A DNA stretch of 50,415 nucleotides from a virus, in IMG/VR virus record IMGVR_UViG_3300037840_000265, positions 1 through 50,415 of that record; one strand, 5' to 3'. The notes under the pieces are model-generated. The model worked only from the letters and a program-made list of their open reading frames with translations. It ran no database searches and had not been told where the DNA came from. Below, in pieces: positions 6,064 to 37,594 of this stretch. Both the position numbers and the translations under genes were made by a program. Each line of letters starts with the position of its first letter. The stretch's first letter is position 1.

Positions 6064-6099
6064 CAGGTCGTTCCTCCATCGGGCGAAGGTGTATTGCCG

Positions 6100-6279
6100 T
6101 CATTTCGGTACATACGCATTCACGCCAATCGTTACCTGCTTGCCATCGACCTGGCAGTCAGTCTTGACGCTGCCGTTGCTGGATGCAACCAGCAGAGTCT
6201 TGCCGCTGCTGCTTGGTCGCAGCGGCATGATGAGCGGCAGGCGAATGACCATCTCGTTGTTCTCAATCGTGATCTTCAT
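6100..6279 (-). CDS. Small beta-rich protein (59 aa)
   Basis: A 59-aa protein starting MKITIENNEMVIRLPL and ending VTIGVNAYVPK. GGAG lies 8 nt before the ATG. The middle (SSSGKTLLVASSNGS) and strand pattern match, from memory, small conserved phage proteins of unknown function. The spacing between neighbours is tight, consistent with one operon. Confidence 0.7.
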   Translation of the reverse strand: MKITIENNEMVIRLPLIMPLRPSSSGKTLLVASSNGSVKTDCQVDGKQVTIGVNAYVPK

Positions 6280-6314
6280 TGCGAGGACTCCTTGCGTTGG
6301 CGAAAGGTAGATGA

Positions 6315-6707
6315 TTACTTAACCTCTTCGGCGATGGCGACACGCAAGCCGGCCTCGAGCATTTTCCGCAACGTTGCCTCAAGAACCTGGTTGGGAAATA
6401 CAGCCATGTCGATGCCATCGCGTTGCGTCAACGTTAGGCCGAATATCTCTGCGAAGGCCGTCGCCTCACTACCGTAAAACTCGTAGAAGTCGCCAACGCG
6501 GAACAGCACTAAGACGCCTGGATGGCGCGCCTTCAGATCGTCACGCTGCTGCATGAAGGTTGGCTTCGTTGACGGTGTCGCCAAGTCGCCGGGCGTGACG
6601 ATGCGTTCGACGGGTTCCGCTTTGCTGGAGCGGCGCCGTGGCATTCCATGCACACGCCGATGCTCGCTGAAATCGTGCGGGTTGTGTCCAGGTTCGCCGG
6701 TTGCCAT
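6315..6707 (-). CDS. Stand-alone MutS domain I-like protein
   Basis: A 130-aa protein. About 45 N-terminal residues are basic. The rest resembles the mismatch-recognition domain I of MutS: TFMQQRDDLKARHPGVLVLF, then RVGDFYEFYGSEA with the Phe-X-Glu wedge (F-Y-E), LTLTQR, and a helical end. The MutS clamp and ATPase domains are absent, so it cannot run classical mismatch repair alone. Such isolated domains are known in phage polyvalent proteins; DNA binding is inferred. The start was chosen at the ATG with GGAG upstream. Confidence 0.75.
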   Translation of the reverse strand: MATGEPGHNPHDFSEHRRVHGMPRRRSSKAEPVERIVTPGDLATPSTKPTFMQQRDDLKARHPGVLVLFRVGDFYEFYGSEATAFAEIFGLTLTQRDGIDMAVFPNQVLEATLRKMLEAGLRVAIAEEVK

Positions 6708-6730
6708 CGTTATTCTCCGTGGGCGGAAGG

Positions 6731-7362: not shown

Positions 7363-7851
7363 TTACAGTTTACCAGCGGCAACCAGCGCTTGAATCCCAG
7401 AAACATGCTTGCAGTGACCGTGGGCGAGCGATCCCTTACACTCACACGACGGATGGTGCCCGTCGCCACCGAGGTTGACCGCGTAGCTCTCGCCGCCGTC
7501 GCCGAACTTTTCGAGGCGGAAGGCCCGGCCGAAGTCTGCGGCCAGTGGCGACAGCCAGTAGGTGAACTGGTCGCGGCCGACCGTGATGGAGACGATGCCG
7601 GGCACGCCGGCCAGCGGTGCGGCCACGAGGCGGACAGAGCGGACGAGCAGGGGACGGCTGCGGCGCCCGTGCTGGCGCGTGTCGCGCGTGTCGCGGGCCG
7701 TGGGCGGCGCGGAGAGCAGCTGGCGGCCCGCTTCCGCCATGGCGTTCACTTCCTCTTCGGTAGGCTCGGGCGAGGCCGGGGCGCCGGCGAGAGCGTCCAA
7801 CTCCGCGAGGGCGTCGATGACTTCGGGGGTGTGGTTGGATACGATAGACAC
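7363..7851 (-). CDS. SWIM zinc-finger protein
   Basis: A 162-aa protein ending in CECKGSLAHGHCKHVSGI, the CxCx(n)CxH signature of SWIM domains, which bind DNA or proteins. Before it is a beta-rich region (SITVGRDQFTYWLSPL, FRLEKFGDGGESYAV), as in small SWIM proteins that present a short peptide platform. It starts at GTG 7851 with GGAGG upstream. A partner nuclease or helicase is not fused here. Confidence 0.8.
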   Translation of the reverse strand: MSIVSNHTPEVIDALAELDALAGAPASPEPTEEEVNAMAEAGRQLLSAPPTARDTRDTRQHGRRSRPLLVRSVRLVAAPLAGVPGIVSITVGRDQFTYWLSPLAADFGRAFRLEKFGDGGESYAVNLGGDGHHPSCECKGSLAHGHCKHVSGIQALVAAGKL

Positions 7852-7921
7852 GGTTCAATCCTCCGACACAGGGTTGGACACGGGGCGGAAGGTGGTGGTA
7901 CACCGACCGCCCCGCTTTCGT

Positions 7922-8125
7922 TCACGTCACAACGGATTTCTTGGCCGCAAGTTCGTCCACCAGCGCCTGCCCTTGAGGGGACAGAACAAAGCGGTCACGG
8001 TCCTGGCACGCCGGGCACGTCACCTCGTTATCGTCCACGGTGAACTGGTGGCATTGCTCTCTGGTTCCGCAAAAACGCGGGTCCCAGCTACCAAAATGCA
8101 CGAGCTTACGTTTGTCGGATTTCAC
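7922..8125 (-). CDS. Mini zinc-ribbon protein
   Basis: A 67-aa protein. CGTREQCHQF and CPACQD make a four-Cys/His site, followed by an amphipathic helix (SPQGQALVDELAAKK). AAGGAG lies well upstream of the ATG. It is the second gene of the leftward unit that begins at the 8.28-8.30 kb promoter. Confidence 0.65.
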   Translation of the reverse strand: MKSDKRKLVHFGSWDPRFCGTREQCHQFTVDDNEVTCPACQDRDRFVLSPQGQALVDELAAKKSVVT

Positions 8126-17295: not shown

Positions 17296-17904
17296 ATGGC
17301 AGCTGAGCCGAATTTTACTGACTTACCCCCTGAGGAGCGAGACGCCCTTGGGCACTGGCTCGCAGGACTCACGGACGGCGAAGGTTATTTTGGAGCACGT
17401 ATCCAAACATGAAAAACGCGCGTTCGTGTCTGCCAGATTCCGATCATCGTTTTCACTATCGCTCTCCGCGAAGACGACGTTGATACCGTTGTGCTCGCCA
17501 ACAGGATACTTGGAGTCGGAACAGTTAAGAGGCATAACTATCCTTCCAAAACAAAAGATACTAAACCGTGCATGACACTTATCGTTAATCGCATTGGTGA
17601 CTGTCATGATGTTATTGTTCCATTCTTTGAACGATACAAGTTGCGTTCAAAGAAAAACCGCGATTTCACGATATGGAGAGAAATCGTGTCGTTTTGTCAT
17701 GTCATCAAAAAATCGCCTCCAAAGATCATCAGGCGTTACGGTGCCGGTTGTGTCCCAAAGTGGACGCCACACCTGCTAGAGCAAGCAACGATGCTTGTAA
17801 ATAAACTTAAGGCGATCAGAAAATACGCAGAGCCTTCCGTGATGCCAAAAACAGTGATAATGACGAAACCGAACAATCATGAGCAACCGACGCTCTTTGA
17901 TTAG
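17296..17904 (+). pseudogene. LAGLIDADG homing endonuclease with an in-frame stop
   Basis: The frame starts at the ATG at 17296 (AGAGGG upstream) and gives WLAGLTDGEGYF, a LAGLIDADG motif, at residues 22-33. A TGA at 17410-17412 interrupts it. The same frame then continues without any shift through IPIIVFTIALREDDVDTVVL, ILGVGTVKRH, DVIVPFFERYKLRSKK and REIVSFCHVI to TAG 17904. These are the expected middle and C-terminal parts of a single-motif family member. It is AT-richer than its surroundings and ends tail-to-tail with the capsid gene. A GTG at 17491 could start a partial product without the catalytic motif. Confidence 0.8.
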
Positions 17905-19427
17905 TTTGGTGCGTTCGTCATTACGGCCATAGCCGCCCCGTCGCTCAATGCGCCGCCGAAACGCCCACGGCCAACGTATAACACCGTATTACTTAAAGCC
18001 AACGTCTTACCTTCAGTCACCGTCCGCAAGTCCCAACCGCGGCGACGATACAGGATGAATTTCTTGAGCGCGACCAGCGCGGCCTGGTTGTTGGTGATGC
18101 CGTTCTGGATCCGCACCGGGTAGCCGAGCAACTGGTAGCTCTGCTCGTCGATGCCGAACACGCGGCGAGCGTCGGCGGGGCCGACCGGCACGGCGCGGAG
18201 CCGCTGGTAGCTGGTGTCGTTCATGACATACGCGATATTCCACGGCTTCGCGCGGTACTGCTTACCGATGCCGAACATCAGGTCTTCGGCGTCCTCGACC
18301 TGGAACGGACCGCCGGTGCCGTTGATGCTCGACACGGCCACCGTGCCGCTGGCGTTGAACAGCCCTTGCGGTTGGCTGGAGCCGTTGCCGTTGGCGATGA
18401 CGTTGTCGAGTTCCTTGAGCGACGCCTGCCCGATGTTCTGCTGCACGATGGCGCCGACCGCCATGGGCGAGTCGGAGAGGAAGTCGATGCCGAGTTCGAG
18501 ACCGATCACCACGGGGTAGATCGTCTGGTTGAAGGCGCCGATCAAGTTCGTGGTCACAAATTCCGTGAAGGCCGTGCCTTCCGAGCTACCCCACGTCAGC
18601 GTCGGGTTGCCGATGGAGCCACCCTTCGTGGTCGTTCCGAACGGCACGTCGCGCAGGTCGATGTACGGCAGCAGTTCCGAGTGCAGCAGCGGGAACGTGA
18701 TTGCCATATCATCAAACCAGTACGGCACAACGTCCGTACCGCCGGACGTGCTGTCGTTCAACACGGTCTTGAGCTGGAGGCCGGACATGAGCTTCTGGGA
18801 GTCTTCGGCGCCGTTGACCCAAAAGTTGTCCTCGTTCCACATCTCTTCCAGGAGTTGCTTTTCGTGCTCATCCAAGGACGACTTGTGCAACTTCGGGGCG
18901 ATAAAACCGTTGCGGGTTGCCTTGAACCGCTCCAGGACACCGAGTTTGGCCAGTTCAAGTTCACTCGGTTCCTCGACCGGGCGCGACATGAAGTAGACGG
19001 GCTCGCCGGTGGACTTGTGCTTGCCGACGACCTTTTCCTTCTTGTAGTATTCCGACACCTTCTTGACGGTAATTCCACCGCCAAGGTAGGGAATACCAAC
19101 GCCCGTGCCGGTTACGGTGGCAGCGGCAAGAGACTTGCCCATATTGTTCTGCGGGGCCGCAGTAGGCGCCGCGAGTGCCTTCGTGACAGTCTCCGTTAAC
19201 GTGGCCATGGCCGTGATCAACGGCGAGACGGCCGCAGCGATCTTGGCCTCCACCGCCGCCATGCCGGTCGGCGCAGCTTCTTTGGTAAACTCCGTCCACT
19301 CGGCGGACGTGATTTCGCCGCTGACCAGCTTGGCGCCGGCGACGCTTTTGACTTGATCATCGGTATCCGCTTCCTTGATCCAACCCTTCTTGAGCAAGTG
19401 ATCCTTGAGAGCCTTCGTGATTTTCAT
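17901..19427 (-). CDS. HK97-fold major capsid protein
   Basis: A 508-aa protein. Residues 1-110 are helical and Ala/Thr-rich, like the delta/scaffold domain removed by the prohead protease. The mature part shows HK97-type features: an N-arm/E-loop-like region, then VVPYWFDDMAITFPLLHSEL, IGLELGIDFLSDSP, VIANGNGSSQPQGLF (the common capsid 'xxGxGxxxPxGi') and LLGYPVRIQN. It follows the protease gene in the usual order. GTGAG lies before the ATG. Confidence 0.9.
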   Translation of the reverse strand: MKITKALKDHLLKKGWIKEADTDDQVKSVAGAKLVSGEITSAEWTEFTKEAAPTGMAAVEAKIAAAVSPLITAMATLTETVTKALAAPTAAPQNNMGKSLAAATVTGTGVGIPYLGGGITVKKVSEYYKKEKVVGKHKSTGEPVYFMSRPVEEPSELELAKLGVLERFKATRNGFIAPKLHKSSLDEHEKQLLEEMWNEDNFWVNGAEDSQKLMSGLQLKTVLNDSTSGGTDVVPYWFDDMAITFPLLHSELLPYIDLRDVPFGTTTKGGSIGNPTLTWGSSEGTAFTEFVTTNLIGAFNQTIYPVVIGLELGIDFLSDSPMAVGAIVQQNIGQASLKELDNVIANGNGSSQPQGLFNASGTVAVSSINGTGGPFQVEDAEDLMFGIGKQYRAKPWNIAYVMNDTSYQRLRAVPVGPADARRVFGIDEQSYQLLGYPVRIQNGITNNQAALVALKKFILYRRRGWDLRTVTEGKTLALSNTVLYVGRGRFGGALSDGAAMAVMTNAPN

Positions 19428-19501: not shown

Positions 19502-21943
19502 TTACGCGCTGAGTAGTTCCGCCTCTTCCGCCGCCGCCAACTTGTCGCCAATTACGTCATGGAGTGTCGCCAGCACGCCGGCCGGCACGTCCTTGTTCGC
19601 TAGCAACAGGCCGGTGAGCTTCATCGCCAGGGCCGGCGCGTCCTTATCCACACCAGGATTGGCGCCGCCGGTAACTTCTGGGTTCGGGTTGCCATCCACG
19701 CCGGGATTGGCCGACGTAATGACCGATTTGAGGTAGCTTTTTGCTTCCCTCATCATCGACTTGCCCGGCCGGTGCATGTCAGGATGGTCCGACAATTCGT
19801 CAGCCAGGTCGTGGGCAGCCTTGACGTGGGCAAGGTTGGTAGCCGACAAGACCTTCGCGTCCTTCGTGCGGACGTTACCCGCCGACTTGTTGGCCCGAGC
19901 CTCGTGCTTGGCCTCCATGTCGCGGTGATAGTCCGCCGCATCCTGGTGCGCCTGCGCTTGCGAGTCGTTGCCTCGCTTGCTGTGGTAACTGGCTAACGCC
20001 TCGTGCTGCTCGGCCGCAGTGCCATGAGCTTCGGCCGCTTCGGCGTGATCGTCCTTGCTCCGCGACTTGGAAGCGACAGCGCTGGCAGCGTTCGCGTCGT
20101 TGCTCGCACCTTCAGCAGACGCGAATTTTCCGGCCTCATCGTGGTTCGGGTTGAACTTCTGCCAGAGCGTCGGGAATTTCTTCCGCCCGCCACCCGGCGC
20201 GTCCTCGTCCTCGTCATCGTCGCCGCCGTAGGCTTCCATCACGGCCTTGCAGTGAACCATCGCGCCCTTGCACATCTCCGCGTGCGCGGCCTTCGTCTTG
20301 TCGTGGTCGGCGGTCTCGCCGAAGAGACCGTGGGCTTCCTTGACCAGAGCGTAATTCTTGCGAGAAACCGCCTTGCCTGCTTTCGTGGCCATGTGCATCA
20401 ACCTCTTGGCCGCTGGCGCGGCGGTTGCGGAGAGTTCGACACGTTCGGGTTCGCCGGTCCACTCACCGTCATCGTGGGTACAGCGGTAGTAGAAGTAGCC
20501 GTCGTCCTCATCGAAGTCGTTGGTGATTGGACCGTGATACGGACCGTCGTAGTCGTAATTACGCGAGCGACGAATACAGACAATTGCTTCGTCCTCCATG
20601 GTCGCAATCACAACGGCGTCGTCGCGCGGCGAAATCGCAACACCGTGCAGCGGGAAGTACGCGCGGATCGACTCTTCCAAGTCGTCTGACAGTTCCTCGA
20701 AACTGCCCGCGAAGTAGGGCAGACCGACGTAGGGACCGCCACCCATGCACTTCACCACGACGGGCGGGAGTCGCTTCGTCGCCACCTCGTATGCCTTCGG
20801 CGTGGCTGTGGCCGGGTAAGCAGCAGGCGGCGCCGGCTGATGGGCAGCGCAGAAATCACTGCCGGCGATGGCCGCGTTCTTGCAACCTGGGGACTTGCAC
20901 ATGGCCACAACAACGTCCCCCTCCCCGAGATGGTCCCCGGTCGCGGCTACCTTACTGCGGCCACTGGCCGCAGTTTTGCAGCTCGTGCAGGTGCCGCCGC
21001 ACTGGCAGGCGTCCTTGTGGCCCTTGCCCCATGTCGGATCAAGGTGCAGAGTCGCTTCAACCTCTTCGCCAGTGGCACTGTAACCACGGACGGTAATCGA
21101 CGGACGGGGGGCGGGCGGTTCAGTGACTGTTTCTCCCTTGGCCCAAAAGTCGCTGAGTCCCTTAAAACCGCTGACGACTTTCGCAGGTTCTTTCGCCCAC
21201 AGTGCAGACGCCCACGCCTTGCACAGAGCGGTGCCAAGCTTCTTGCGACTGAATGCGAGGATCGCAGCTTCCTGATTGCTCTCAATCGAGACCGTCGATA
21301 CTTCGCGGACAAGAAATTTGAGAACGTGCCAGCCAAGCTCAATGTCTGGATCGAGATCCTGGACCTTCTTTTTGCTCAGCGGCTCAAACTTCTTCGGAAT
21401 GAATCCGTGCGAGATAGCCAGCGCACCAAACTCAACAAGTACGGCAGCATCGTTGCCGAGCGGCGTATCCGCGATGGCAGAAACACCCTTCAACCATCTT
21501 TTATCTTGCTGCGTTGTCTTGACGTACTTGCCGATTGGCGACACAGGAAGATGCTGCCAAAGCAAAGGCGTGTGCGGTCCGAACTCAGCGCCAGATGACT
21601 CCATCACGTCGCCGTCACTGTCCTGCTTCGTGGACGTGACGACGTGATAGAACGCCATGACGGTCTTTTCGGGCAACTCTGCGGACGGAACCTGCACTGC
21701 CGAACCGTACTCTTTTACCTCCATGTCGCTGTCGCTGTAGACCAGCGTGCCCGCTGCGGCGGCGAGTGCCTTGCCCCACTGCTCGCCGGTAACATCAAGG
21801 AAACGAGCCGCACACTCCGGCGACTCCAGACACTCGACAATGCTGCCGGCGTAGGCCGACGCGAGCGCGATGCCGTGGCCCGCGCGACTTTGTTTTCGTC
21901 CCGCGATGGCGGTCAACAGTTTCGTGGCGTCGTTTCGTGGCAT
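19502..21943 (-). CDS. HK97-type prohead protease with long C-terminal extension
   Basis: An 813-aa protein. A peptidase U35-like domain occupies about residues 90-260: MAFYHVVTSTKQDSDGDVM, then LLWQH with the likely catalytic His, and VREVSTVSIES with the likely catalytic Ser. Known family members are about 200-300 aa, so about 500 extra residues are present. These include CQCGGTCTSC and CKSPGCKNAA...CAAH metal-binding motifs and a NPNHDEAGKFAS segment. A long Ala/His/Asp-rich coiled coil resembling a scaffold follows, then helices at the end. The start is the ATG at 21943 after a terminator hairpin; no Shine-Dalgarno is evident. Confidence 0.85.
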   Translation of the reverse strand: MPRNDATKLLTAIAGRKQSRAGHGIALASAYAGSIVECLESPECAARFLDVTGEQWGKALAAAAGTLVYSDSDMEVKEYGSAVQVPSAELPEKTVMAFYHVVTSTKQDSDGDVMESSGAEFGPHTPLLWQHLPVSPIGKYVKTTQQDKRWLKGVSAIADTPLGNDAAVLVEFGALAISHGFIPKKFEPLSKKKVQDLDPDIELGWHVLKFLVREVSTVSIESNQEAAILAFSRKKLGTALCKAWASALWAKEPAKVVSGFKGLSDFWAKGETVTEPPAPRPSITVRGYSATGEEVEATLHLDPTWGKGHKDACQCGGTCTSCKTAASGRSKVAATGDHLGEGDVVVAMCKSPGCKNAAIAGSDFCAAHQPAPPAAYPATATPKAYEVATKRLPPVVVKCMGGGPYVGLPYFAGSFEELSDDLEESIRAYFPLHGVAISPRDDAVVIATMEDEAIVCIRRSRNYDYDGPYHGPITNDFDEDDGYFYYRCTHDDGEWTGEPERVELSATAAPAAKRLMHMATKAGKAVSRKNYALVKEAHGLFGETADHDKTKAAHAEMCKGAMVHCKAVMEAYGGDDDEDEDAPGGGRKKFPTLWQKFNPNHDEAGKFASAEGASNDANAASAVASKSRSKDDHAEAAEAHGTAAEQHEALASYHSKRGNDSQAQAHQDAADYHRDMEAKHEARANKSAGNVRTKDAKVLSATNLAHVKAAHDLADELSDHPDMHRPGKSMMREAKSYLKSVITSANPGVDGNPNPEVTGGANPGVDKDAPALAMKLTGLLLANKDVPAGVLATLHDVIGDKLAAAEEAELLSA

Positions 21944-21954
21944 GTCGCGGCGCG

Positions 21955-22009
21955 AAAAAAAACCGGCCCCTGAACACACCGATGCTCTCGGTGTGTTCAG
22001 GGGCCGGTT
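21955..22009 (-). terminator. Very strong intrinsic terminator before the protease gene
   Basis: A 22-bp perfect stem with a 5-nt loop is followed on the - strand by eight T. It ends only 12 nt before the protease ATG. It closes off leftward transcription from the accessory island, or must be read through to express the protease. Confidence 0.9.
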
Positions 22010-22160
22010 AGGTAAACGTCTGCGGTCCCTGTGGTCGTAAATCGACCGTCAGGGATTAATGCTAAATTGAGTGGGGAGCGGTGTCAAGGGAGCGCGAGAG
22101 AAGTGGGGGAATAAAAAAAAGAAACTGGACAATAGAAGTGGCGCCGGCGACAATGCAGAG

Positions 22161-22358
22161 ATGACCAACGCCGAAGCTCTAACCTGGTGCCGCCAACACA
22201 ACGCCACGGTCGAATTCCGCGAAGCGGAACCGTTCTGTAGCGTAAGATTTTTCAGGCAACCCTACGTGCAGGTTCGCGTCAGCGGATTTGATACGCACGT
22301 AGGTAGGACGTTCGCTGGCGCGGTGGCGAGAATGGCGCGTATCGTGCGCAGTGCATGA
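22161..22358 (+). CDS. Small hypothetical protein, + strand
   Basis: A 65-aa protein, MTNAEALTWCRQHNATVEF with beta strands CSVRFFRQPYVQVRV and a helix AGAVARMARIV. Longer in-frame starts upstream give basic low-complexity sequence. The Shine-Dalgarno is weak. It is antisense to the flanking leftward genes, and a GC hairpin follows it. No family recognised. Confidence 0.55.
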   Translation: MTNAEALTWCRQHNATVEFREAEPFCSVRFFRQPYVQVRVSGFDTHVGRTFAGAVARMARIVRSA

Positions 22359-22407: not shown

Positions 22408-22590
22408 TTACCTCTCTTCCCACCGGGTATTGCGGTGGGGATCGCTCGTCTCGGCGACGGGGACAGCCTGAACTACCTCAATGGTACTGCCGTCGTCCCG
22501 ATGCTGGACGCGGCTGACGGCCTCGGTGTAGTCCAGGGTGGGCTCTTCGCGGACTCCATCGGGCCTGACCACTACGTATGCGGTTGCCAT
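22408..22590 (-). CDS. Accessory-array protein a
   Basis: A 60-aa protein, MATAYVVVRPDGVREEPTL, a small beta-rich protein. The ATG is preceded by the array's repeated leader with AAGGAGAGAGACG. It is the last gene of the array. No family recognised. Confidence 0.6.
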   Translation of the reverse strand: MATAYVVVRPDGVREEPTLDYTEAVSRVQHRDDGSTIEVVQAVPVAETSDPHRNTRWEER

Positions 22591-22642
22591 CGTCTCTCTC
22601 CTTCGGTTTCAGCGGGCCGCCGGCGGGCGCGGCCCAGGGGGG
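22591..22642 (-). repeat. Array leader, type 1
   Basis: A GGGCCGC / GCGGCCC hairpin (7-bp stem, 8-nt loop) is followed on the - strand by GCTGAAACCGAAGGAGAGAGACG and the ATG. The same module precedes other genes of the array. Confidence 0.75.
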
Positions 22643-22644
22643 GG

Positions 22645-22890
22645 TCATAGGATAACGCGGAATCCAGCCCGCTGGGCGGCCTCGATCATGCTACGTTCGC
22701 CATCCGTGACGACGCCTTCGGTTTCCGTCACCGGGGTCAGCGATTCCACGTCGCCCGGCCCATGCGGCTGGCCGTCCAGCAGGACCACGGGCAGACCGTA
22801 GGAACTGCTGGGATGGTTCGCGGTCAACTCGCCGGTGCGATTTCTCGCGGCATAGCTGAGGCCACCACTTGAATGCACGACGCACTTCAT
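22645..22890 (-). CDS. Accessory-array protein b
   Basis: An 81-aa protein, MKCVVHSSGGLSYAARNRT, with PVVLLDGQPHGPGDVES and a C-terminal helix and strand (MIEAAQRAGFRVIL). The ATG at 22890 follows the type 1 leader; longer frames read through that leader and are unlikely. The function is unknown. Confidence 0.65.
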   Translation of the reverse strand: MKCVVHSSGGLSYAARNRTGELTANHPSSSYGLPVVLLDGQPHGPGDVESLTPVTETEGVVTDGERSMIEAAQRAGFRVIL

Positions 22891-22938
22891 CTCTCTCTCC
22901 TCGGGCGAATGTGGGCCGCCGGCGGGCACGGCCCAGGG
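22891..22938 (-). repeat. Array leader, type 1 (variant)
   Basis: GGGCCG / CGGCCC stem with one changed pair compared with the copy at 22591, then GAGGAGAGAGAG before the ATG. Confidence 0.7.
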
Positions 22939-23044
22939 GTAAGATCCAACGCCTTTCGGCATCACTGAATTCGGCACAGCGTCACGGTCAACGTGTGCTC
23001 GTCCGGGTGCTCAACGCCCGCAGGCGTCACTGAGGCGGCGGGGC

Positions 23045-23263
23045 TCAGTAGCTGTCCCGCCGGTGCTGCTTCTCGGCCCGGCTGTCGCGGTCGTAGGCCG
23101 GCAGGCCGTGCCGGTCGTAGATCGCTCGCAGGCTCGCCACGGCCGCCTCCGCGTCCGCCAGGTCGGCGGCGTGGGCGTCACCGCGGTTGACCAGTTGGCG
23201 GAGTTTCTTCTGGAGTTTCTGGGCCGCGTCGGCAGCAGCGCGGAGTTGGGGGAGTTCGGTCAT
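23045..23263 (-). CDS. Accessory-array protein d
   Basis: A 72-aa helical protein (AADAAQKLQKKLRQLVN, DAEAAVASLRAIYDRHG), probably a coiled coil. It is coupled to the upstream gene by an ATGA overlap instead of a leader repeat. The following 100 bases up to the next leader hold no convincing gene. Confidence 0.6.
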   Translation of the reverse strand: MTELPQLRAAADAAQKLQKKLRQLVNRGDAHAADLADAEAAVASLRAIYDRHGLPAYDRDSRAEKQHRRDSY

Positions 23264-23841
23264 GGGGTTAGACTTCCAGGGGTGGCGTGTGGCGATCGAT
23301 CGAGCGCGGCCCTGGCGTCGGCTAGCGACTCCGCAACCTGAGTCCCCCGCAAATAGATCGTGCCGCCAAGGTGGTCCCAATGGTCCGGCAATTCCCACCG
23401 CTCCGAACTGGCGGCGTAGTGGGGACTCCAGTAACCCACCGGTTCGCCCTGGGCGTCGAACGCGATTACCGAGTGCCAGCTGGTCGGCACGTAACAGGTG
23501 TTGCGGTACTCGGTCGGGCGCTTGCCCCGCCGATACTCGAAGCTCAGGTCTCGGCCGTACCCTACCGACCAGACCCAGACAAACTGGGTTGCGGTCACTG
23601 GCGGCGGCGGAACCGGCTTCGGCGCCCGCTGCTCCGCACGGAGGGCCGTCACGTCGCCGATCCGTGGTTCGTAGGGTCCGAAGTTACACTCCTCCCAACG
23701 GCCGTCACGCAGGCCGATTTCCCCGTGCCAATTGCGGCCATCGTAGCGGAGGCCACGGACCAGTGTCCCTTCGCTAAGGGAATAGGGGCCGCTGAGGTCG
23801 TTGGGCGTGAATTGCGTAGCTTTTTCGAGCAGTCCGTTCAT
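23260..23841 (-). CDS. Accessory-array protein e
   Basis: A 193-aa protein with mixed beta structure: SEGTLVRGLRYDGRNWHGEI, a proline linker (KPVPPPPV), then a Trp/Tyr-rich domain with WHSVIAFDAQGEPVGYWSPHY. It is the largest gene of the array, behind a type 1 leader. No family recognised; its size and composition would suit a host-interaction protein, which is a guess. Confidence 0.6.
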   Translation of the reverse strand: MNGLLEKATQFTPNDLSGPYSLSEGTLVRGLRYDGRNWHGEIGLRDGRWEECNFGPYEPRIGDVTALRAEQRAPKPVPPPPVTATQFVWVWSVGYGRDLSFEYRRGKRPTEYRNTCYVPTSWHSVIAFDAQGEPVGYWSPHYAASSERWELPDHWDHLGGTIYLRGTQVAESLADARAALDRSPHATPGSLTP

Positions 23842-23896
23842 CGGTCTCTCTCCTCTCGGGTTCAGCGGGCCGCCGGCGGGCGCGGCCCAGGGGGGG
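23842..23896 (-). repeat. Array leader, type 1
   Basis: The GGGCCGC / GCGGCCC hairpin with 8-nt loop is followed on the - strand by GAGGAGAGAGACCG and the ATG. Confidence 0.75.
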
Positions 23897-23909
23897 GTAC
23901 GGCCATGGC

Positions 23910-24179
23910 CTACAGCGACTCCCCCATGAACTCCGTAATCCCAGCCGCCCGTGCAATTTCTCTCACCGGCGCTCCGCTAGCGCTGGCGATCTGCCCAAGT
24001 GTGATCGCCGGGCCACCCGCCCCTCCCTGGCAGGCGATCCATGCTGACAGATCCGCCTGCCGCCGGAAGTCAGGCAGCAGGCTGTCGATCAGGGATTGCG
24101 TGGCCTCCTGTCTAGACAGGAGGCCGTCCAGGTCCCCGCGGTAGCCGCTCTGGCGGCAATATTGCGCAAACGTCGTCAT
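23910..24179 (-). CDS. Accessory-array protein f, possible HTH
   Basis: An 89-aa helical protein. The C-terminal ITLGQIASASGAPVREIARAA could be a helix-turn-helix; the N-terminal half is FAQYCRQSGYRGDLDGLLS. It lies behind a type 2 leader. DNA binding is only a suggestion. Confidence 0.6.
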   Translation of the reverse strand: MTTFAQYCRQSGYRGDLDGLLSRQEATQSLIDSLLPDFRRQADLSAWIACQGGAGGPAITLGQIASASGAPVREIARAAGITEFMGESL

Positions 24180-24300
24180 CGTCTCATCTCCCTTTCTGCC
24201 GGCCCCGCGGGGGCCGTGGTTCGTTCGTCAGGACCCGGCCGGGGCGCGACTCCCGGAAGACGCTGCGGGTCAGGGCCGCCGGTGGGCACGGCCCAGGGGG
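24180..24300 (-). repeat. Array leaders, type 2 next to a type 1 copy
   Basis: The type 2 module (CGGCCCC / GGGGCCG stem, then GCAGAAAGGGAGATGAGACG before the ATG) lies at 24180-24220. A type 1-like hairpin (GGGCCG / CGGCCC) lies at about 24272-24300, with no gene between them. This may be the scar of a lost cassette. Confidence 0.6.
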
Positions 24301-24305
24301 GGGGG

Positions 24306-24518
24306 CTAGTACCGCCGCGAGTGCGGCGGCAGGGGCACCGCAGCCCCCAGCCGGCACTCTGCGGCCGGAAACGTCAGGGGGAAGGGTTCCCCCTCGGGCA
24401 CGATTTCTACCGACGCCGGCACAGCCGGCAGGCCACAGCGGCGCGGCCGGCTAGCCGACATGGACCACAATTCACCCACCGTATTGGTGGGTAGGTGCAC
24501 GATCTGATCTTCCCTCAT
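24306..24518 (-). CDS. Accessory-array protein g
   Basis: A 70-aa protein, MREDQIVHLPTNTVGELWSM, with a beta segment SVEIVPEGEPFPLTFPA. It lies behind a type 2 leader. No family recognised. Confidence 0.55.
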   Translation of the reverse strand: MREDQIVHLPTNTVGELWSMSASRPRRCGLPAVPASVEIVPEGEPFPLTFPAAECRLGAAVPLPPHSRRY

Positions 24519-24556
24519 CGTCTCTCTCCCTTTCTGCCGGCCCCGCGGGGGCCGTG
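24519..24556 (-). repeat. Array leader, type 2
   Basis: A CGGCCCC / GGGGCCG stem with GCG-type loop, then GCAGAAAGGGAGAGAGACG before the ATG. Confidence 0.75.
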
Positions 24557-24584
24557 GTTATGGGTGCGGGCGTGCCTCAGGGGG

Positions 24585-24782
24585 TCAACAGGTCTCGCAC
24601 TTCGCATCCCCGGCACGCTCGCCGAGGACAGTGTAAATCTCGGCCGTGAATTTCGCGCCGATGTAATCGGGGATGCGGTCAGGCAGGATCAGCGTCCGGC
24701 CGTCGCCGACAGCAACACGGCCCCCGCGGGCGCCGACGTAAGGGCCGCGCTGGCCCCACAAAAACATAACCTTCTCGTCCAT
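24585..24782 (-). CDS. Accessory-array protein h
   Basis: A 65-aa protein, MDEKVMFLWGQRGPYVGARG, then GRTLILPDRIPDYIGAKF and a C-terminal CETC pair. Beta-rich; function unknown. It lies behind a type 1 leader. Confidence 0.6.
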   Translation of the reverse strand: MDEKVMFLWGQRGPYVGARGGRVAVGDGRTLILPDRIPDYIGAKFTAEIYTVLGERAGDAKCETC

Positions 24783-24836
24783 CGTTTCTCTCCTTCGGGT
24801 TCAGCGGGCCGCCGACGGGCGCGACTCAGGGGGGGG
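24783..24836 (-). repeat. Array leader, type 1 (degraded stem)
   Basis: The same module as at 22591, but the 3' arm reads GCGACTC in place of GCGGCCC on the + strand, so the hairpin is weakened while the AAGGAGAGAAACG part is kept. Confidence 0.65.
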
Positions 24837-24839
24837 TAA

Positions 24840-25088
24840 TTACGATCCTTCGCCGATCACGGAGTGTCGGGACCCGTCCGCCAACTCCACGGTATACCAG
24901 CGCTCGCGACCATTGCGGAGCAGGTTCCCGCGGGCGACGACGCGGGCGGCCTCTTCGCTGAGCACGTCACCATTGAGCGACACGAGGTGCCGCTGGCCTG
25001 ACGCGGCCCGGACATCCCCCTGGCAGTCCTGGTAGACCACCACGTCGATATACCTGGGCGTCGGGGTATAAATTGCATTGTCAGCCAT
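24840..25088 (-). CDS. Accessory-array protein i
   Basis: An 82-aa protein, YIDVVVYQDCQGDVRAASGQ, then LLRNGRERWYTVELADGS. It is a small beta/alpha protein and the first gene after the strong leftward promoter at 25149-25176. It lies behind a type 2 leader. No family recognised. Confidence 0.6.
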   Translation of the reverse strand: MADNAIYTPTPRYIDVVVYQDCQGDVRAASGQRHLVSLNGDVLSEEAARVVARGNLLRNGRERWYTVELADGSRHSVIGEGS

Positions 25089-25130
25089 CGTCTCTCTCCC
25101 TTTCTGCCGGCCCCCGCGGGCCGTGGTTCG
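25089..25130 (-). repeat. Array leader, type 2
   Basis: A CGGCCC / GGGCCG stem (shortened on one side and extended in the loop compared with 24519), then GCAGAAAGGGAGAGAGACG before the ATG. Confidence 0.75.
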
Positions 25131-25148
25131 TTTCGTCCTTACACTTAG

Positions 25149-25176
25149 ATTATCGCACGAGAAAACATAAAGTCAA
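25149..25176 (-). promoter_or_regulatory. Leftward sigma70-type promoter of the accessory array
   Basis: On the - strand, TTGACT is followed after 16 bp by GATAAT in an AT-rich stretch, upstream of all array genes from 25088 leftwards. The stretch 25131-25230 holds no gene. Confidence 0.7.
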
Positions 25177-25929: not shown

Positions 25930-27410
25930 TGCATCAGTCCCTCGCTCCGCCACACCGCCGTACACTGCGGAAATTTCTGGGCCAACACTTCGGGCCGACT
26001 CGCGGTGTGGACTACCCGCGAGAATTCCGCGAACCCCTCCAAGGCGTTCTGCTGGCCGTATTTCGAGAGTGTCACTTTATCGCCGGCAATCTCGCTTTTC
26101 CACGCCGCCTGCCAGGCCGGCGTGTCGCTGATGCGCTCGCCCGTCGCCCCGTCAATGGCGTGGCCGAATTCATGGGCGTAGACGTAAGCGGCCGGCATCT
26201 CCTTGCCCGCATCCTTCCCGGCCGTGATCGGTTGGCCGCCGTCGCCGCTGAACGTACCGGTATCCCAGCGGAACGCGCCGGCGGCAGCGCGGCCAGAAGC
26301 GCCAATCGCCGCGAACGCCGGAGACCGCTCGGCAATCGCCGCCGTGAGTTCTTTCGGGCTCGCGTAGAATTGGTACTCCTTGACGGCCTGATGGACTTTC
26401 TCCAGCGCCTTCGGCGTCATACGGTCCGTAACCTGCTTCACCGCATCGCCGTACTGCTTGCGCTGTACGTCTGTCAGGCCGGGAGCGCTTTGTGCGGCAG
26501 CCGTTGCCTTAGCGACGATGGTTGCACGGGTGGCGTCAGCGGTGATGTCGCTACCTGAGCCGCCGCCAGAACTGCCACAGGAAGTAAACCGGCCACCGCC
26601 AGACGTGCCCGCCTCAACGCGGCAGACTTCACCCGCCTTCGCCGTCGTGACGCCGAGCCAACCGCGAACCTCGCTCTCCTCCGGTAACGGCCAGTCCACC
26701 CCGAGCCCGTCCCGCAACGCCCGCATCGCCTCAAGGTTCGCCGCGACAAGATCAGCAGTGTCGCCAGATTCAGAGTTAGTTTCTCCCTTACTCAATATCC
26801 CACGCGCTTGAAGGATTGCTTTGGTGGCCCCCCAGGCGACCAGCTTCGCCACCGTGAAAGTCGCCGGCATCGGCTGGAACTCTTGTACTACCTGCTTGAG
26901 CAACCACTCCTCCATCGGGTGCGAGGCCATGCCACCCGCCGCAGTGGTTGCCAGCGCCTGGAGCCGATCGCGCTGCGACAGGGCGAGTTGGCCACCGCGT
27001 TCGATAGCGGCCGTGGCCGTGGCGCCCATCTTGGCAACAGCGGCGATAACGGCCGTGTTGATCCGCGAGACAAGGCCGGGGTCAGCGGTGATTGAGGCAG
27101 GAGAAGATTCTCCGCCAGCGCCGCCGCACGGGATGTACTGGCCACCGTCGGGTTGACCGGCGGGAACGCGGCACGCTTCTGCCGCTTTCGTTTCCTTTGG
27201 AGTCACCGTCGCCGGATCTGCGTCTTGGCCACCGACAAGGCAAACGTGAATTTCCGCATGTTCGTCGGTTGCCGGCACGGTCCACTCGACTAACTCCCCT
27301 TCAAGGTCATCATCACCCTCATATTCATAAGGATCCATGTCGAGTTCTTGATCCTGCGTCAATTGCTCGTTCCAACCACGGCGCTTGGCCGTCACCACCC
27401 TAGCAGCCAT
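25926..27410 (-). CDS. Virion-associated HExxH metallopeptidase
   Basis: A 494-aa protein with two copies of a motif of the form CRVxAGxxxGGxxxxC (about residues 80-95 and 270-285). The C-terminal domain has YAHEFGHAIDGATG (about residue 405) and NALEGFAEFSRVV further on, where the Glu may be the third zinc ligand, as in lethal-factor-like (ATLF) peptidases found beside phage Mu F proteins. The N-terminal part has a helical region. It follows the Mu F-like gene with an 11-nt overlap, so it is likely packaged or injected; that is inference. GGAG lies before the ATG. Confidence 0.75.
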   Translation of the reverse strand: MAARVVTAKRRGWNEQLTQDQELDMDPYEYEGDDDLEGELVEWTVPATDEHAEIHVCLVGGQDADPATVTPKETKAAEACRVPAGQPDGGQYIPCGGAGGESSPASITADPGLVSRINTAVIAAVAKMGATATAAIERGGQLALSQRDRLQALATTAAGGMASHPMEEWLLKQVVQEFQPMPATFTVAKLVAWGATKAILQARGILSKGETNSESGDTADLVAANLEAMRALRDGLGVDWPLPEESEVRGWLGVTTAKAGEVCRVEAGTSGGGRFTSCGSSGGGSGSDITADATRATIVAKATAAAQSAPGLTDVQRKQYGDAVKQVTDRMTPKALEKVHQAVKEYQFYASPKELTAAIAERSPAFAAIGASGRAAAGAFRWDTGTFSGDGGQPITAGKDAGKEMPAAYVYAHEFGHAIDGATGERISDTPAWQAAWKSEIAGDKVTLSKYGQQNALEGFAEFSRVVHTASRPEVLAQKFPQCTAVWRSEGLMQ

Positions 27411-29466
27411 GCGAATTCTCCTTTCGCAACCGCTTGTCATTGCGCGAGCGATTCGCCTCAAAGGACTCGGGAATCAGGTTGTGTAATTGATAACCGCCGC
27501 CCTGGCATTTGACGAATATCTTGCCGCGCTCGAATTTCGGATACCCATTAGGGTTTTCTTTGGCGTCGTCAGTCCAGTGCATCTTCTTGCCCGTCCACGG
27601 ACACACAACATAACCGCGTTTATCGCCACCAAACTCCGCGAAGAGGTTGCGGCGCTGTTGACGACGACTGGCTGCGGAACCGCCACGCGACTCACCGCCA
27701 GCACGAGCTTTGCCTTCGCGAGCCAACTGCATTTCCGCGCGGGCTTTTTCGACTTGTTCTTCCGTCGGCACGGGAGCATCCTTTATTTTTTTATTGGCCA
27801 GTTTGCGAGCGGTTGCTTGCTCTTTAACTTCCGCTTTACCACCAGCCTCCGTACTGCAAGATGTGAATTGGCCACCTTCCGAAGAACCAGCAGAAACGCG
27901 GCAGGCGCCGCCCTCTTTCCACCAAAGCGAGTACGCTTTTTCTTGACCCGCCGGCGGTCCCACGGCAATGCCGTACTGGTTAAATTCCTCCCCGTTAACT
28001 CCCGTGTCGTGCCAAGAATCCAGGAAGTCGGCCTCGACAATTATCCGCCGCCCGGCCACCGGGTCGTTCGCCGGATCAACCACAAACACCATGCCGAGTC
28101 CCACGCCGATAACGGTGACGTAATGACCCGAACGCCCGGCCGCTTCCTGTGCCTCGGTGCCCCACGCCTGGACGGCGCAAATCACCGGCCACCCGCGACG
28201 AAAGTAGTCAGCAAGGTCAGCAACGGCCATCTCGGCAGCGATGACTTGCAGACCGCAACGCTTGAGAGCGGTAACGATGCCTGATGGTTCCGTGCCGTCG
28301 CTCTTCGTGGTGCCACACGCCTCTTCCCATGCTTTATCCGTGTCATCAATAGCGTCTGCCGCATCGAAGTAGGTAGCGACAGCACGAGCAACAGCGGCGC
28401 CACACGCGAAGGCGTTCCACTGCTTGATATCAGGAACGTCAATTAACGTTGCCGGTTCATCGCTTGTTGCCGACGCCGCTTTCACTCGTAACCGAAATGC
28501 CTTCTCTTCCGTAGATTCCTTCGCGTCCGGCATTTCATCGGGAGCACGCGAGAGCATCGTGCATCGGCAACGACACCTTTGAGCAGCACTGAAATCAGGA
28601 TCGCCAGGATACATCCCCTCTTCGCCGCCGACAAGGAACGGCTCATCCATCGCAACGATTTGACCGTTCGCTTCGGCGTGATCTTCCCGCGTCGATGCGT
28701 CGTCAATCGCCAACCACTCGCGGCCAGAAACAAGCCCCATTTCGGATAACTTGTTCATGGATTCTAGACTTCCTGCCAGCATAGCCCCGGTAGTTTCCGT
28801 CCTGGCGATATTCTCCGCCCGCGCCTTGCTGCCGTCCGGCCCAAGCGTCTCCTCGATCCGCTCCGCGATCTTGTCGCCCGACTCGCCAGCGTCCAGGCCG
28901 GCCCTCAAGTCCTCCACAATGCCCCGCCGCGTCGTGTCGGCAACGTCGTCCCAATACGGCCTGTCAAGTAGATCGTCAAGCCATTTGTCGATGCGCGACC
29001 GCACATCCGGCGGCAACTTCACGCGCAACGCTTCAAGCTCGTCGCGCGTGTAACTGGAGGTCGTGCGGTCCGTGGGCGCCGCCGTGTCATCCTTTCGCAC
29101 CAGGAAGAGTCGGTGTATTTCCTTCGCCGTCCGCGGACGGCGAAGTTCCCATTCCGCGCGGGCGCCGGCAAGGGCGGTACGGAGTAAAACACCGCGTAGG
29201 CCAGCCTTGAGCGTTGCCGTCCACGCCTCGGGGCCGAAGAGCTGGTCGGCTAGGTCCGAAGGATCGCGGCCAGCGACCTTGATGGTTCGCAGGCGGTCCC
29301 CGACCTGTTCCGCCGCGACGGCAAAGACGGCCTGCACGTCGGCCGCCATGGCACGCTCGGCCGCAGCGTGGGCCTTGAGCCAAATCGTGACGAGGGCCTT
29401 GTCGCCGAGGACCTTGGCGTAACAGCGGTACGTGCCGGGAGCGGTGGTAGCGAGAAGTGCGGTCAT
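27400..29466 (-). CDS. Mu F-like head morphogenesis protein fused to C39-like peptidase and HNH domains
   Basis: A 688-aa protein. Residues about 100-320 are Mu F-like: ARAENIARTETTGAMLAGS, EWLAIDDASTREDHAEANGQ and FSAAQRCRCRC. Residues about 350-520 look like a C39-type papain-fold peptidase: DIKQWNAFACGAAVARAV with the candidate Cys, and GHYVTVIGVGLGMVFVVDP with His and Asp. Next is GGACRVSAGSSEGGQFTSC, a motif shared with the neighbouring metallopeptidase. The C-terminal 90 residues are HNH-like: VCPWTGKKMHW, then KFERGKIFVKCQGGGYQL and HNLIPESFEANRSRND. Mu F proteins sit at the portal vertex; the extra domains may be delivered into the cell. Confidence 0.85.
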   Translation of the reverse strand: MTALLATTAPGTYRCYAKVLGDKALVTIWLKAHAAAERAMAADVQAVFAVAAEQVGDRLRTIKVAGRDPSDLADQLFGPEAWTATLKAGLRGVLLRTALAGARAEWELRRPRTAKEIHRLFLVRKDDTAAPTDRTTSSYTRDELEALRVKLPPDVRSRIDKWLDDLLDRPYWDDVADTTRRGIVEDLRAGLDAGESGDKIAERIEETLGPDGSKARAENIARTETTGAMLAGSLESMNKLSEMGLVSGREWLAIDDASTREDHAEANGQIVAMDEPFLVGGEEGMYPGDPDFSAAQRCRCRCTMLSRAPDEMPDAKESTEEKAFRLRVKAASATSDEPATLIDVPDIKQWNAFACGAAVARAVATYFDAADAIDDTDKAWEEACGTTKSDGTEPSGIVTALKRCGLQVIAAEMAVADLADYFRRGWPVICAVQAWGTEAQEAAGRSGHYVTVIGVGLGMVFVVDPANDPVAGRRIIVEADFLDSWHDTGVNGEEFNQYGIAVGPPAGQEKAYSLWWKEGGACRVSAGSSEGGQFTSCSTEAGGKAEVKEQATARKLANKKIKDAPVPTEEQVEKARAEMQLAREGKARAGGESRGGSAASRRQQRRNLFAEFGGDKRGYVVCPWTGKKMHWTDDAKENPNGYPKFERGKIFVKCQGGGYQLHNLIPESFEANRSRNDKRLRKENSHGC

Positions 29467-29675
29467 TTTAACCTGTACGCATCGCATCCAAACGGCCGAC
29501 CTAAAACAGACGAAATTGCCGTGCATGTCGAGCAAGGCCGTTTCGACCAAGAGTGCATGTCGTGTTCGAGAAGCGTAAGAGCGGCAACCAACCGCACTTC
29601 CTGTGAAGCGTCCGGCGACCGCGCTGCCTTGGCGTCGGCTTCGTAATCCGCAGATGTGACGTACCTAGCTGCCAT
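29463..29675 (-). CDS. Small protein coupled to the Mu F-like gene
   Basis: A 70-aa protein: helical N-terminus (SADYEADAKAARSPD), a CSTCTAI pair and a C-terminal Cys. Its TGA overlaps the ATG of the Mu F-like gene. The function is unknown. Confidence 0.6.
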   Translation of the reverse strand: MAARYVTSADYEADAKAARSPDASQEVRLVAALTLLEHDMHSWSKRPCSTCTAISSVLGRPFGCDAYRLK

Positions 29676-35658: not shown

Positions 35659-35937
35659 TTATCTGGCAGATTCCAGCAGAGATTGCAAGAGGTCGCGGCG
35701 GGTTTTCATTTCCTCTTGCGGAATAGTAAGATCCAGAAACCTCAATCCAGCCGCCTCAATAGGCTTAACTAGACGCATCGCGTCATCCCACGGCAACGTC
35801 ACGTCTGAATAACAAGCCGAGGCATTGGCAATGAGCAGATTTCTCATGGCTTCCCAGTTGTTATCTAGCTTTCCAGCGTCATACGCTCTCACAATTAATC
35901 TACAAGTATCGTGGAGTCTCTCTATCGTGCATGTCAT
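35659..35937 (-). CDS. Hypothetical protein coupled to the terminase nuclease gene
   Basis: A 92-aa helical protein (TIERLHDTCRLIVRAYDAG, WEAMRNLLIANASACY). The ATG at 35937 overlaps the nuclease gene stop as ATGA, with GGAG upstream. No family recognised. Confidence 0.6.
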   Translation of the reverse strand: MTCTIERLHDTCRLIVRAYDAGKLDNNWEAMRNLLIANASACYSDVTLPWDDAMRLVKPIEAAGLRFLDLTIPQEEMKTRRDLLQSLLESAR

Positions 35938-36668
35938 CGCCACCACTCCTCTCTCTCGTCTGGTAAGTGGACCTCGACATCGCCCACGCGGAGAATCTCG
36001 CCGCCGGGCACCAGTTCAAACGCGGGCTTGACGGTCGGCTCGTCCTTCTTGTCCGCTTCCCACGGCGCGAAGCTGTTGTAACAAATCGGTCCTGTGTAGG
36101 GCACCGGTTGACTCTCGCCGAGCCAAGCAGCGATACACAACGCCAACACTATATCATCTTTGTCCTTTTCTCGCCAAGCTTCAAACGTCTCATTTGCCGC
36201 TGTCGTGATTTTAGCCCGGAACACTTCCAGTTCCTGGGTCAATGTCCGTGCCAACGGCAGGCTCGCTGCCACCTTGAGACGGCCCGTCTGGAGCAGGGCC
36301 TGGAGTACGGAGACGAGTTGTTTCTTCGGCACATGCGGCCCGTCCGGTCCAATCGTAGCATCGTGACCGGAGGTAATCGTCAGTGGCACGATACAGATGG
36401 GCGAACCCTCGCGGAACAGGTCCACCACGGCCCGGCCGACGCCGGTGTTGTCCACAACGAGTACGTGCGGGACAGCAGATGGCAGGGCGGTGAGTAACTG
36501 CCGCGTCTCCGTGACTATCAGTGGGTAGCGAGTGCCCAGCGGCCAGCGGTGTAAGTGCCGAGCGGCGTAATACCAGACTGACTCCACACCGGTACGCTCA
36601 AGAATCACCAGAGCAGACGGGTCATTCGTCTGTCCAAGGTCAAGACCGACAAAGTAACTCTTTGACAT
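35934..36668 (-). CDS. Terminase large subunit, nuclease (RNase H-fold) part
   Basis: A 244-aa protein. YFVGLDLGQTNDPSALVIL is the first acidic strand of the RNase H-like terminase nuclease; VLVVDNTGVGRAVVDLF holds the second; EKDKDDIVLALCIAAWL holds the third (metal-binding Asp). It is encoded separately from the ATPase. A GTG at 36677 would overlap the ATPase stop as GTGA and is an equally possible start. It cuts concatemeric DNA during packaging. Confidence 0.85.
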   Translation of the reverse strand: MSKSYFVGLDLGQTNDPSALVILERTGVESVWYYAARHLHRWPLGTRYPLIVTETRQLLTALPSAVPHVLVVDNTGVGRAVVDLFREGSPICIVPLTITSGHDATIGPDGPHVPKKQLVSVLQALLQTGRLKVAASLPLARTLTQELEVFRAKITTAANETFEAWREKDKDDIVLALCIAAWLGESQPVPYTGPICYNSFAPWEADKKDEPTVKPAFELVPGGEILRVGDVEVHLPDEREEWWR

Positions 36669-36673
36669 AAATT

Positions 36674-37594
36674 TCACCCAAACAGCGGCTCAATACCATC
36701 CGTCAGGGCCGCAGACGGCGCCGACGTAGTATCGCCAGTTAACACGAACAACGGTTGTACATTATCGTCAAGTGCCGCCTGGATGTCCGCGTAGGCGAAT
36801 ACCGCCCCGACCATATCCGTAAACTCAACGAAGTATTCCTGCTTGAACCAACGTTCGCCGATGGACAATCGCTCTTCCTCAAGAAAGGCGGGCGAGATAC
36901 GCGGGCACTGGTCGGCCGTGACTTTGAACCGCTCCCAGGCGCCGGCGCCGTGCCATTCCTCGTGAAACCACCCGCGTTTGCCGAACGGCGTTGACAGCAC
37001 CACGAGGCGGCCATGCGAGACAGCCAGCATGGGGCGCACCGCATAGTAAAGTGAATCGCTCACACGGGCCGCCTCGTCAATCACCAACAGCGACACGCCC
37101 GAGAAACCGCGGATGCCGCTTTCATTCTCCGGCAGGCTGACGATGCGGCTGCGGTTGGCGAGTTCGAGCGTCAGCTGTGTCGGCGCCCGGCGGTTGAGCG
37201 GGGAACCCATCGCCCGCCACGAACGCAACACCTTGTCGCGGAACAGCTCACCGGACTGCCGCAGCGTGGGCGACAGGAGAAGGATGAGTGAGTCCGGTTT
37301 TGACAGGGCGGTTTCCAGGGCCAGCAGAGCGGCAACGGTCGATTTTCCTGACTGCCGGGAGCAGAGCAGCATCAGGCGTGAGGCGTCGGACCGCAGAGCT
37401 TTCTGCTGCCATGCGTCCAGGTGCATCCCAGCCCGCTCGGCACGGACTACCGGATCGAGCGGCGCCGCGTCGGCCTCCTCGCCCGTCATTTGCAGCATGA
37501 CGCGCGTGAGCAGATCGTCGGCGGTCTCGTGGTCGTTCACGAAGCCTGCGTCGTGGAACAGAGGCGAGCGCGAGGAACGTGGCATGTGCGTCAC
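36674..37594 (-). CDS. terL: Terminase large subunit, ATPase part
   Basis: A 306-aa protein. DAWQQKALRS is the adenine-binding Q motif, LLCSRQSGKSTVAALL the Walker A with adjacent Arg, SLLVIDEAARV the Walker B, and LVVLSTPFGKRGWFHEEW the coupling motif. The protein ends before any nuclease domain, which the next gene supplies. GTG at 37594 overlaps the previous stop; ATG at 37585 is the alternative. It powers DNA packaging at the portal. Confidence 0.9.
   Translation of the reverse strand: MTHMPRSSRSPLFHDAGFVNDHETADDLLTRVMLQMTGEEADAAPLDPVVRAERAGMHLDAWQQKALRSDASRLMLLCSRQSGKSTVAALLALETALSKPDSLILLLSPTLRQSGELFRDKVLRSWRAMGSPLNRRAPTQLTLELANRSRIVSLPENESGIRGFSGVSLLVIDEAARVSDSLYYAVRPMLAVSHGRLVVLSTPFGKRGWFHEEWHGAGAWERFKVTADQCPRISPAFLEEERLSIGERWFKQEYFVEFTDMVGAVFAYADIQAALDDNVQPLFVLTGDTTSAPSAALTDGIEPLFG

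Follow-up and report, generated by a model that had tools for sequence, protein, structure and literature searches.

Several kinds of conserved intergenic sequence have been described in phage genomes. Start-associated sequences and their extended form (SAS and ESAS) are known from cluster K mycobacteriophages and from Microbacterium phages of cluster EF (PMC3203893, PMC7302621, PMC11373665), the SAS being a conserved motif that exceeds a normal ribosome site in length, stands before many genes and in about half of the cases has an inverted repeat just upstream (PMC3203893, PMC7302621). In T4-like phages, promoter early stem-loops (PeSLs) were reported by Arbiol et al. 2010 and Comeau et al. 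2014, whose work we follow here as it is related in PMC4503421. Short conserved boundary sequences have been proposed for phage mosaicism (discussed in PMC3029335), and inverted repeats of 17-18 bp are found in Cluster EG (PMC7302621) and Cluster O (PMC4351075) phages. Here we describe an island of eight small open reading frames (ORFs A to H; minus strand, from 25130 down to 22408) in the complete IMG/VR virus record IMGVR_UViG_3300037840_000265, classed linear, whose 50,415 bp we call the window. All but one of these ORFs start behind one of two repeated leaders, and we read the island as an array of interchangeable small-gene cassettes whose ORFs are exchanged at the leaders, a reading to which we give a probability of about two in three.

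Repeated leaders in the window array

Seven of the eight small ORFs, which are unrelated to one another, start behind a repeated leader, of type 1 in four cases (B, E, G and H) and of type 2 in three (A, C and D); an extra type 1 copy, without ribosome site, follows C. The type 1 leader consists of a C-run, the palindrome GGGCCGC/GCGGCCC arranged as CTGGGCCGC-loop-GGCGGCCC, an A-rich stretch and GGAGAGAGACG-ATG. In the type 2 leader, the palindrome CGGCCC(C)/(G)GGGCCG is followed by CAGAAA and by the same ribosome site as in type 1, both types ending in GGAGAGAGACG-ATG or a near variant. Frequently, type 1 starts at the upstream stop codon or directly behind it and can therefore be read equally well as a gene-end element. 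From A to H, the parts of the array are:

25089..25130, minus: type 2 leader of A, with the stem CGGCCC-GCGG-GGGCCG, CAGAAA and GGGAGAGAGACG
24840..25088, minus: gene A, 82 aa, without family match
24783..24839, minus: type 1 leader of B, its stem with one A-C mismatch and one G-U pair
24585..24782, minus: gene B, 65 aa, without family match
24519..24584, minus: hybrid junction between B and C, made of a truncated type 1 start and the type 2 leader of C
about 24562-24584, minus: the truncated type 1 start CCCCCTGAGGCACGCCCGCACCC in this junction
24519-24560, minus: type 2 leader of C, directly after the truncated type 1 start
24306..24518, minus: gene C, 70 aa, without family match
24273..24305, minus: type 1 C-run and hairpin directly after the C stop codon, with no ribosome site and no ORF behind
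24238..24252, minus: possible degenerate type 1 remnant (GAGTCGCGCCC..CGGC), weak, about 1.4% of shuffles scoring as high
24180..24222, minus: type 2 leader of D, identical to the C leader over 35 nt
23910..24179, minus: gene D, 89 aa, with marginal similarity to a repressor family (E 0.076)
23842..23901, minus: type 1 leader of E
23260..23841, minus: gene E, 193 aa, without family match
23045..23263, minus: gene F, about 72 aa, overlapping E by ATGA, with no leader of its own
22891..22946, minus: type 1 leader of G
22645..22890, minus: gene G, 81 aa, without family match
22591..22644, minus: type 1 leader of H, with stop codon, C-run, hairpin and CTGAAACCGAAGGAGAGAGACG
22408..22590, minus: gene H, 60 aa, without family match

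Leader copies are 81-100% alike within a type, and leader-versus-leader comparison gave E values of 8e-21 and 5e-20. With the ribosome site removed, pairs within a type still scored 34-74, all above the maxima of 300 shuffles (21-37); most cross-type pairs did not exceed the shuffle maxima. Whole-window scans found neither leader type elsewhere in the record. An earlier note, made from the sequence alone, had recognised at least seven leaders of two modules in the array, which our analysis bears out, the leaders being alike far beyond chance and confined to the array. The note had also placed a leader before each small gene, and this is true of the seven ORFs named above and untrue of F. Its statement that the proteins are not alike was confirmed by pairwise comparison of A to H.

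Besides the hybrid junction between B and C, that between C and D (24180-24305) is peculiar: it opens with a complete type 1 palindrome that lacks a ribosome site, continues with a spacer containing a weak type 1-like stretch, and closes with the type 2 leader. To the note, this junction looked like a lost cassette; a gene-less type 1 copy does stand there beside a type 2 leader, and such a loss is possible. Both junctions would fit a past deletion or insertion at leaders.

Comparison of proteins A to H with Pfam, PADLOC and PHROGs returned nothing beyond marginal scores, and these searches gave no positive evidence for the anti-defence role that had been suggested for the array. A single-sequence AlphaFold model of gene E was unusable (predicted local distance difference test, pLDDT, of 37).

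Replacement of genes between conserved leaders in eleven phages

Viral contigs of IMG/VR were scanned with the shared leader end AGGAGAGAGACGATG, which revealed several families of palindrome-plus-ribosome-site leaders (in contigs L124, L155, L171, L192, L130, L205 and L212). The first four contigs are mutually related, with genes outside the arrays 45-90% identical, and a second scan with their leader core yielded a group of 11 contigs from 11 different metagenomes. The arrays of these phages hold 100-odd small ORFs, nearly all of them without Pfam or PHROG matches, and most of the intergenic gaps of 60-110 nt are leaders made up of a palindrome, a GAAAC box, a ribosome site and the ATG. Of 132 leaders, 99 contain the GAAAC box, the expectation being 0.24 per 75 nt.

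Leader types occupy slots whose order is fixed in the 11 phages, namely delta (CCCCCGGACGGGGG), beta (GGCC-GGCC) and alpha (GCCGCCCCGTGCGGC or GCCGGCCCCGGCCGGC), and the proteins behind them change: nine families in the delta slot of 11 phages, six in the beta slot of ten phages and nine in the alpha slot of 11. ORFs were thus replaced between conserved leaders, the breakpoints lying at stop codons and at ribosome sites. Colinear blastn alignment of L229 and L231 uncovered four leaders with 86-95% homology (lowest E 9e-33) that are followed by unrelated genes, the homology setting in at the previous stop codon or slightly downstream of it and continuing to a few nucleotides beyond the start codon. 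The clearest of these matches covers 84 bp at 95% identity and sets in at the last base of the previous stop codon; the genes on its two sides are unrelated and differ in length. Most homologous genes of these two phages outside the slots are 60-92% identical, whereas the slot ORFs share nothing. Since L229.7 has a homolog in the same slot of the more distant L232 and an unrelated gene takes this place in the close L231, ORF replacement, and not fast divergence, is required.

Across all 55 phage pairs, 325 leader matches (pairs from non-equivalent slots included) precede unrelated proteins and 27 precede homologous ones; where the proteins are unrelated, 97% of the matches stop within 12 nt of the start codon. 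A gene has also moved to another leader by a crossover at the ribosome site: L244.13 combines the delta leader of L245.13 with the beta-slot gene L245.14, the joint falling within the ribosome site and the two proteins being 96% identical. Between L230.13 and L232.8, homology exists only from the ribosome site onward. The earlier note had proposed to search related phages for the same leaders before different ORFs; these 11 phages of the same design speak strongly for exchange at the leaders, whereas the collections searched contained no close relative of the window phage. In 1,095 genomes sampled from three phyla, the leader pattern of the group was not found, and two of the group's conserved proteins had no match in the phage collection. 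Repeat-rich proteins led us to suspect Planctomycetes as a possible host.

Searches aimed at relatives of the window phage itself gave little. No match was obtained in the phage collection, either with the window in a near-DNA search or with the concatenated array proteins, and the major capsid protein, MuF and exact type 1 patterns found nothing in viral contigs. The type 1 pattern gave 14 single hits in genome contigs, mostly of high-GC Actinomycetota, which we took as chance. A search with the large terminase (TerL) led to 84 contigs that have TerL in common with the window (often split in two ORFs, as there) and sometimes the portal, and none of them contains array genes or leaders. Similar leaders before three or more clustered genes occurred in 9 of 119 contigs from the leader-end scan versus 1 of 84 in the TerL set (Fisher p ~0.05).

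Some of the contigs found on the way have repeats of their own. The TerL relative L023 has two genes (7560-8014) that encode different proteins behind a 99-nt leader, 88% identical between them. In L042 and L105, CCCCTTGCAAGGGG palindromes lie inside and between genes on both strands; we rejected them as leaders, as they are dispersed palindromes, many of them not before genes. L130, a contig of the leader-end scan, has nine genes, each behind a GGTGCAATTGCACC-type palindrome with ribosome site (1285-6730 in array-strand coordinates). Other leader families are seen in L205, L212, L108 and L210.

Explanations for the leaders

Under the cassette reading, a unit would consist of one ORF, or of a pair of ORFs that overlap, with a standard intergenic module as its frame; the module would span approximately from the upstream stop codon to the ATG and end in a strong, conserved ribosome site. 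At the RNA level, the module would give every ORF on one transcript the same translation start. In the DNA, the repeated modules, and chiefly the ribosome-site/start segment that they have in common, would offer short homology by which phage or host homologous recombination could swap, add or delete ORFs, the leader keeping its slot as the ORF changes. We infer that the exchange is performed by ordinary homologous recombination or strand annealing, and the modules probably standardise translation as well.

That the window array works like those of the 11 phages is suggested by analogy. The two sets have a common design, which includes a C-rich stretch after the stop, a palindrome, an A-rich box, the same ribosome-site end and overlapping gene pairs without a leader between them. 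We also count in favour of the cassette reading the hybrid or empty junctions on either side of C, and the fact that the array is preceded by one promoter and closed by one strong terminator.

A number of observations weigh against this reading. Because no close relative was found in the searched collections, exchange in the window array is supported by analogy only. The alpha-leader profile of the 11 phages does not find the window leaders when built without the ribosome site, and for this reason we do not claim homology of the hairpin sequences; with the ribosome site, it scores only leader H (E 0.027). Identity of the ribosome site is not independent evidence, since the leader end served as the retrieval key, and the two leader sets may have arisen independently. 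As for the 11 phages, the inclusion of leader pairs from non-equivalent slots enlarges the count of 325 matches. ORFs were delimited with a simple gene caller, though the breakpoints were read from DNA alignments, and the records are metagenome contigs in which assembly joins at repeats are possible, yet 11 samples agree. Finally, the window hairpins are no stabler than dinucleotide shuffles (z from -1.5 to +1.1, mean 0); with such a mean in leaders of 76% GC, stability lends no support to an RNA structure.

The alternative that survives best is that the leaders are purely an expression device, providing uniform strong ribosome sites that are perhaps bound by a factor of the phage or its host, recombination at them being incidental. 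Conservation is indeed strong in the ribosome-site/start segment, strong Shine-Dalgarno sites before small genes are normal in phages, and a translation role was considered for the SAS by Pope et al. (PMC3203893). Nevertheless, a ribosome site alone does not explain conservation over the whole 60-100 nt from stop to start between unrelated genes, and crossovers of gene and leader exactly at the ribosome site are left without explanation. We regard this alternative as unlikely, if deserving of serious attention; an expression role and a recombination role do not exclude each other.

A second alternative takes the hairpins as RNA processing, terminator or attenuator sites that cut one transcript into single-gene messages. 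GC-rich palindromes between stop codon and ribosome site would suit such a function, and in the 11 phages folding is slightly better for array leaders than for their shuffles (mean z -0.72, n=130, compared with -0.06 for control genes). However, no T-run follows any leader hairpin, none was called a terminator on the coding strand, and the mean z of the window leaders is 0. Covariation is weak too. The earlier note had the type 2 arms changing together with pairing preserved, and this did not hold: the C and D copies are identical, and A has a stem of 6 bp instead of 7 through an indel or loop change. In the type 1 copy of B, pairing is broken by the A-C mismatch and includes the G-U pair. No compensatory arm change exists within the window, where the covariation test failed, and in the 11-phage group the signal was weak (z = 1.8; 41 of 1000 permutations as high). 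Comparison of the window with Rfam gave only two sub-threshold microRNA matches, on the other strand. On balance, we consider processing or termination at the hairpins improbable.

The leaders could also be copies of a small mobile hairpin element, similar to repetitive extragenic palindromes (REP) or miniature inverted-repeat transposable elements (MITE), that inserts at gene boundaries, as might be thought from the multiple near-identical copies, one gene-less and one truncated. Their single orientation, similar distance to the ATG, possession of a ribosome site and confinement to the array speak against it, and the 11 phages keep the order of leader types while the ORFs change, the reverse of a moving leader; we find this very improbable. 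Tandem duplication of one leader-gene unit with ORFs diverged beyond recognition would account for leaders 81-100% alike within a type, but ORFs of 60-193 aa without residual similarity behind near-identical leaders, and slot ORFs of L229 and L231 that share nothing where homologous non-slot genes are mostly 60-92% identical, make it the least credible of all.

Returning to the cassette reading, a bolder version of it would see in the ordered slots a docking frame of fixed-position leader types, into which any ORF with the common ribosome-site/start and stop ends can be loaded. Such systems would be an integrase-free phage counterpart of integron cassettes, present in unrelated phage groups and perhaps equipped with a recombination or annealing factor of their own that acts on the leaders. 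We put this forward as a speculation that is unlikely to be right.

Phage genomes are full of relative-less small genes, which are traded cleanly at gene ends. In the arrays described here, the boundary is visible, repeated and ordered, with breakpoints within a few nucleotides of stop and start codons, which makes the idea of the leader as a joint directly testable. Leaders also give a handle for finding accessory small genes; genes in such positions may target host defences or take part in host takeover.

Position of the array and comparison with described systems

Most genes of the record lie on the minus strand, including those for TerL, portal, MuF-like head protein, prohead protease and major capsid protein. 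The array is located between MuF/peptidase-like genes and the protease gene, in agreement with the earlier note, which had placed it between head genes. Capsid, portal and MuF genes match siphovirus-type (HK97-like) PHROG families. The flanking features are:

27400-29550, minus: MuF-like head gene
25149..25176, minus: sigma-70-type promoter upstream of the array, TTGACT-16-GATAAT plus extended TG
21962..22008, minus: strong intrinsic terminator downstream of the array, 20 counted pairs and T8
19502-21979, minus: prohead protease
17901-19427, minus: major capsid

The promoter, already pointed out in the note, is present by consensus (10/12, with the extended TG), and no further promoter-like site was found on the coding strand between 22408 and 25130. 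It is plausible from this arrangement that one promoter serves the whole array. The window phage encodes two sigma-70-family factors (41210-42049 and 47958-48566), and thus later phage genes may use their own promoters and the array a host-type one.

Downstream of the array, a promoter-like site at 22087-22059 is followed within ~50 nt by the terminator at 22008-21962 (stem of at least 20 pairs, T8), which marks 21962-22087 as a candidate short phage RNA. By reading of the sequence, a small plus-strand ORF at 22179-22358, convergent to the array, lies between H and the terminator. Elsewhere in the window, the large terminase is divided between an ATPase ORF (36674-37594) and a nuclease ORF (35934-36677) that overlap, and the same split is found in TerL relatives such as L022, L023 and L027.

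Among the systems mentioned at the outset, the SAS/ESAS come closest in layout, since seven window ORFs have GGAGAGAGACG-ATG or close variants a few base pairs before them. However, the SAS consensus is GGGATAGGAGCCC, accompanied by subcluster-specific inverted repeats of 17 bp, and the window leaders differ from it and have arms of 6-7 bp. Moreover, the Adephagia ESAS holds a SigA-like promoter, whereas the window leaders hold none, and ESAS have been described as staying with the same gene families and not as sites of exchange.

In behaviour, the resemblance is to the PeSLs, which PMC4503421 presents as stem-loop modules that recur between genes and through which related phages shuffle genes; in the 11 phages of the same design, modules likewise lie at the breakpoints of gene exchange. 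As far as that source describes them, PeSLs are promoter-terminator composites of T4-like myoviruses, whereas the window modules, in a phage with HK97-type head genes, have a ribosome site and neither a promoter nor a terminator T-run. Boundary sequences share with our arrays the idea of homologous recombination at short common sequences at gene junctions (PMC3029335), and junction homology does coincide with mosaic breakpoints in the 11 phages; here, however, the sequence is a repeated and ordered stop-to-start module at nearly every array junction. The dyad repeats of Cluster EG and O phages also lie in short intergenic regions among small genes, but no ribosome-site part has been described for them, and those of Cluster O are not tied to start codons, about one third being inside genes (PMC4351075).

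Integron cassettes are likewise unrelated small ORFs separated by related palindromic sites (attC). They differ in that the slots described here keep their leader when the ORF changes, and in that the palindrome comes with the ribosome site of the downstream gene. No attC core sites (RYYYAAC/GTTRRRY) were seen at the window junctions by reading, a dedicated motif scan not having been run, and no IntI tyrosine recombinase was present among the subset of window ORFs that was scanned. Because the arrays combine a SAS-like layout with a PeSL-like behaviour, the latter as it is related in PMC4503421, we assign them to neither the SAS/ESAS nor the PeSLs, and it is this combination of a SAS-like layout with PeSL-like exchange that is new here.

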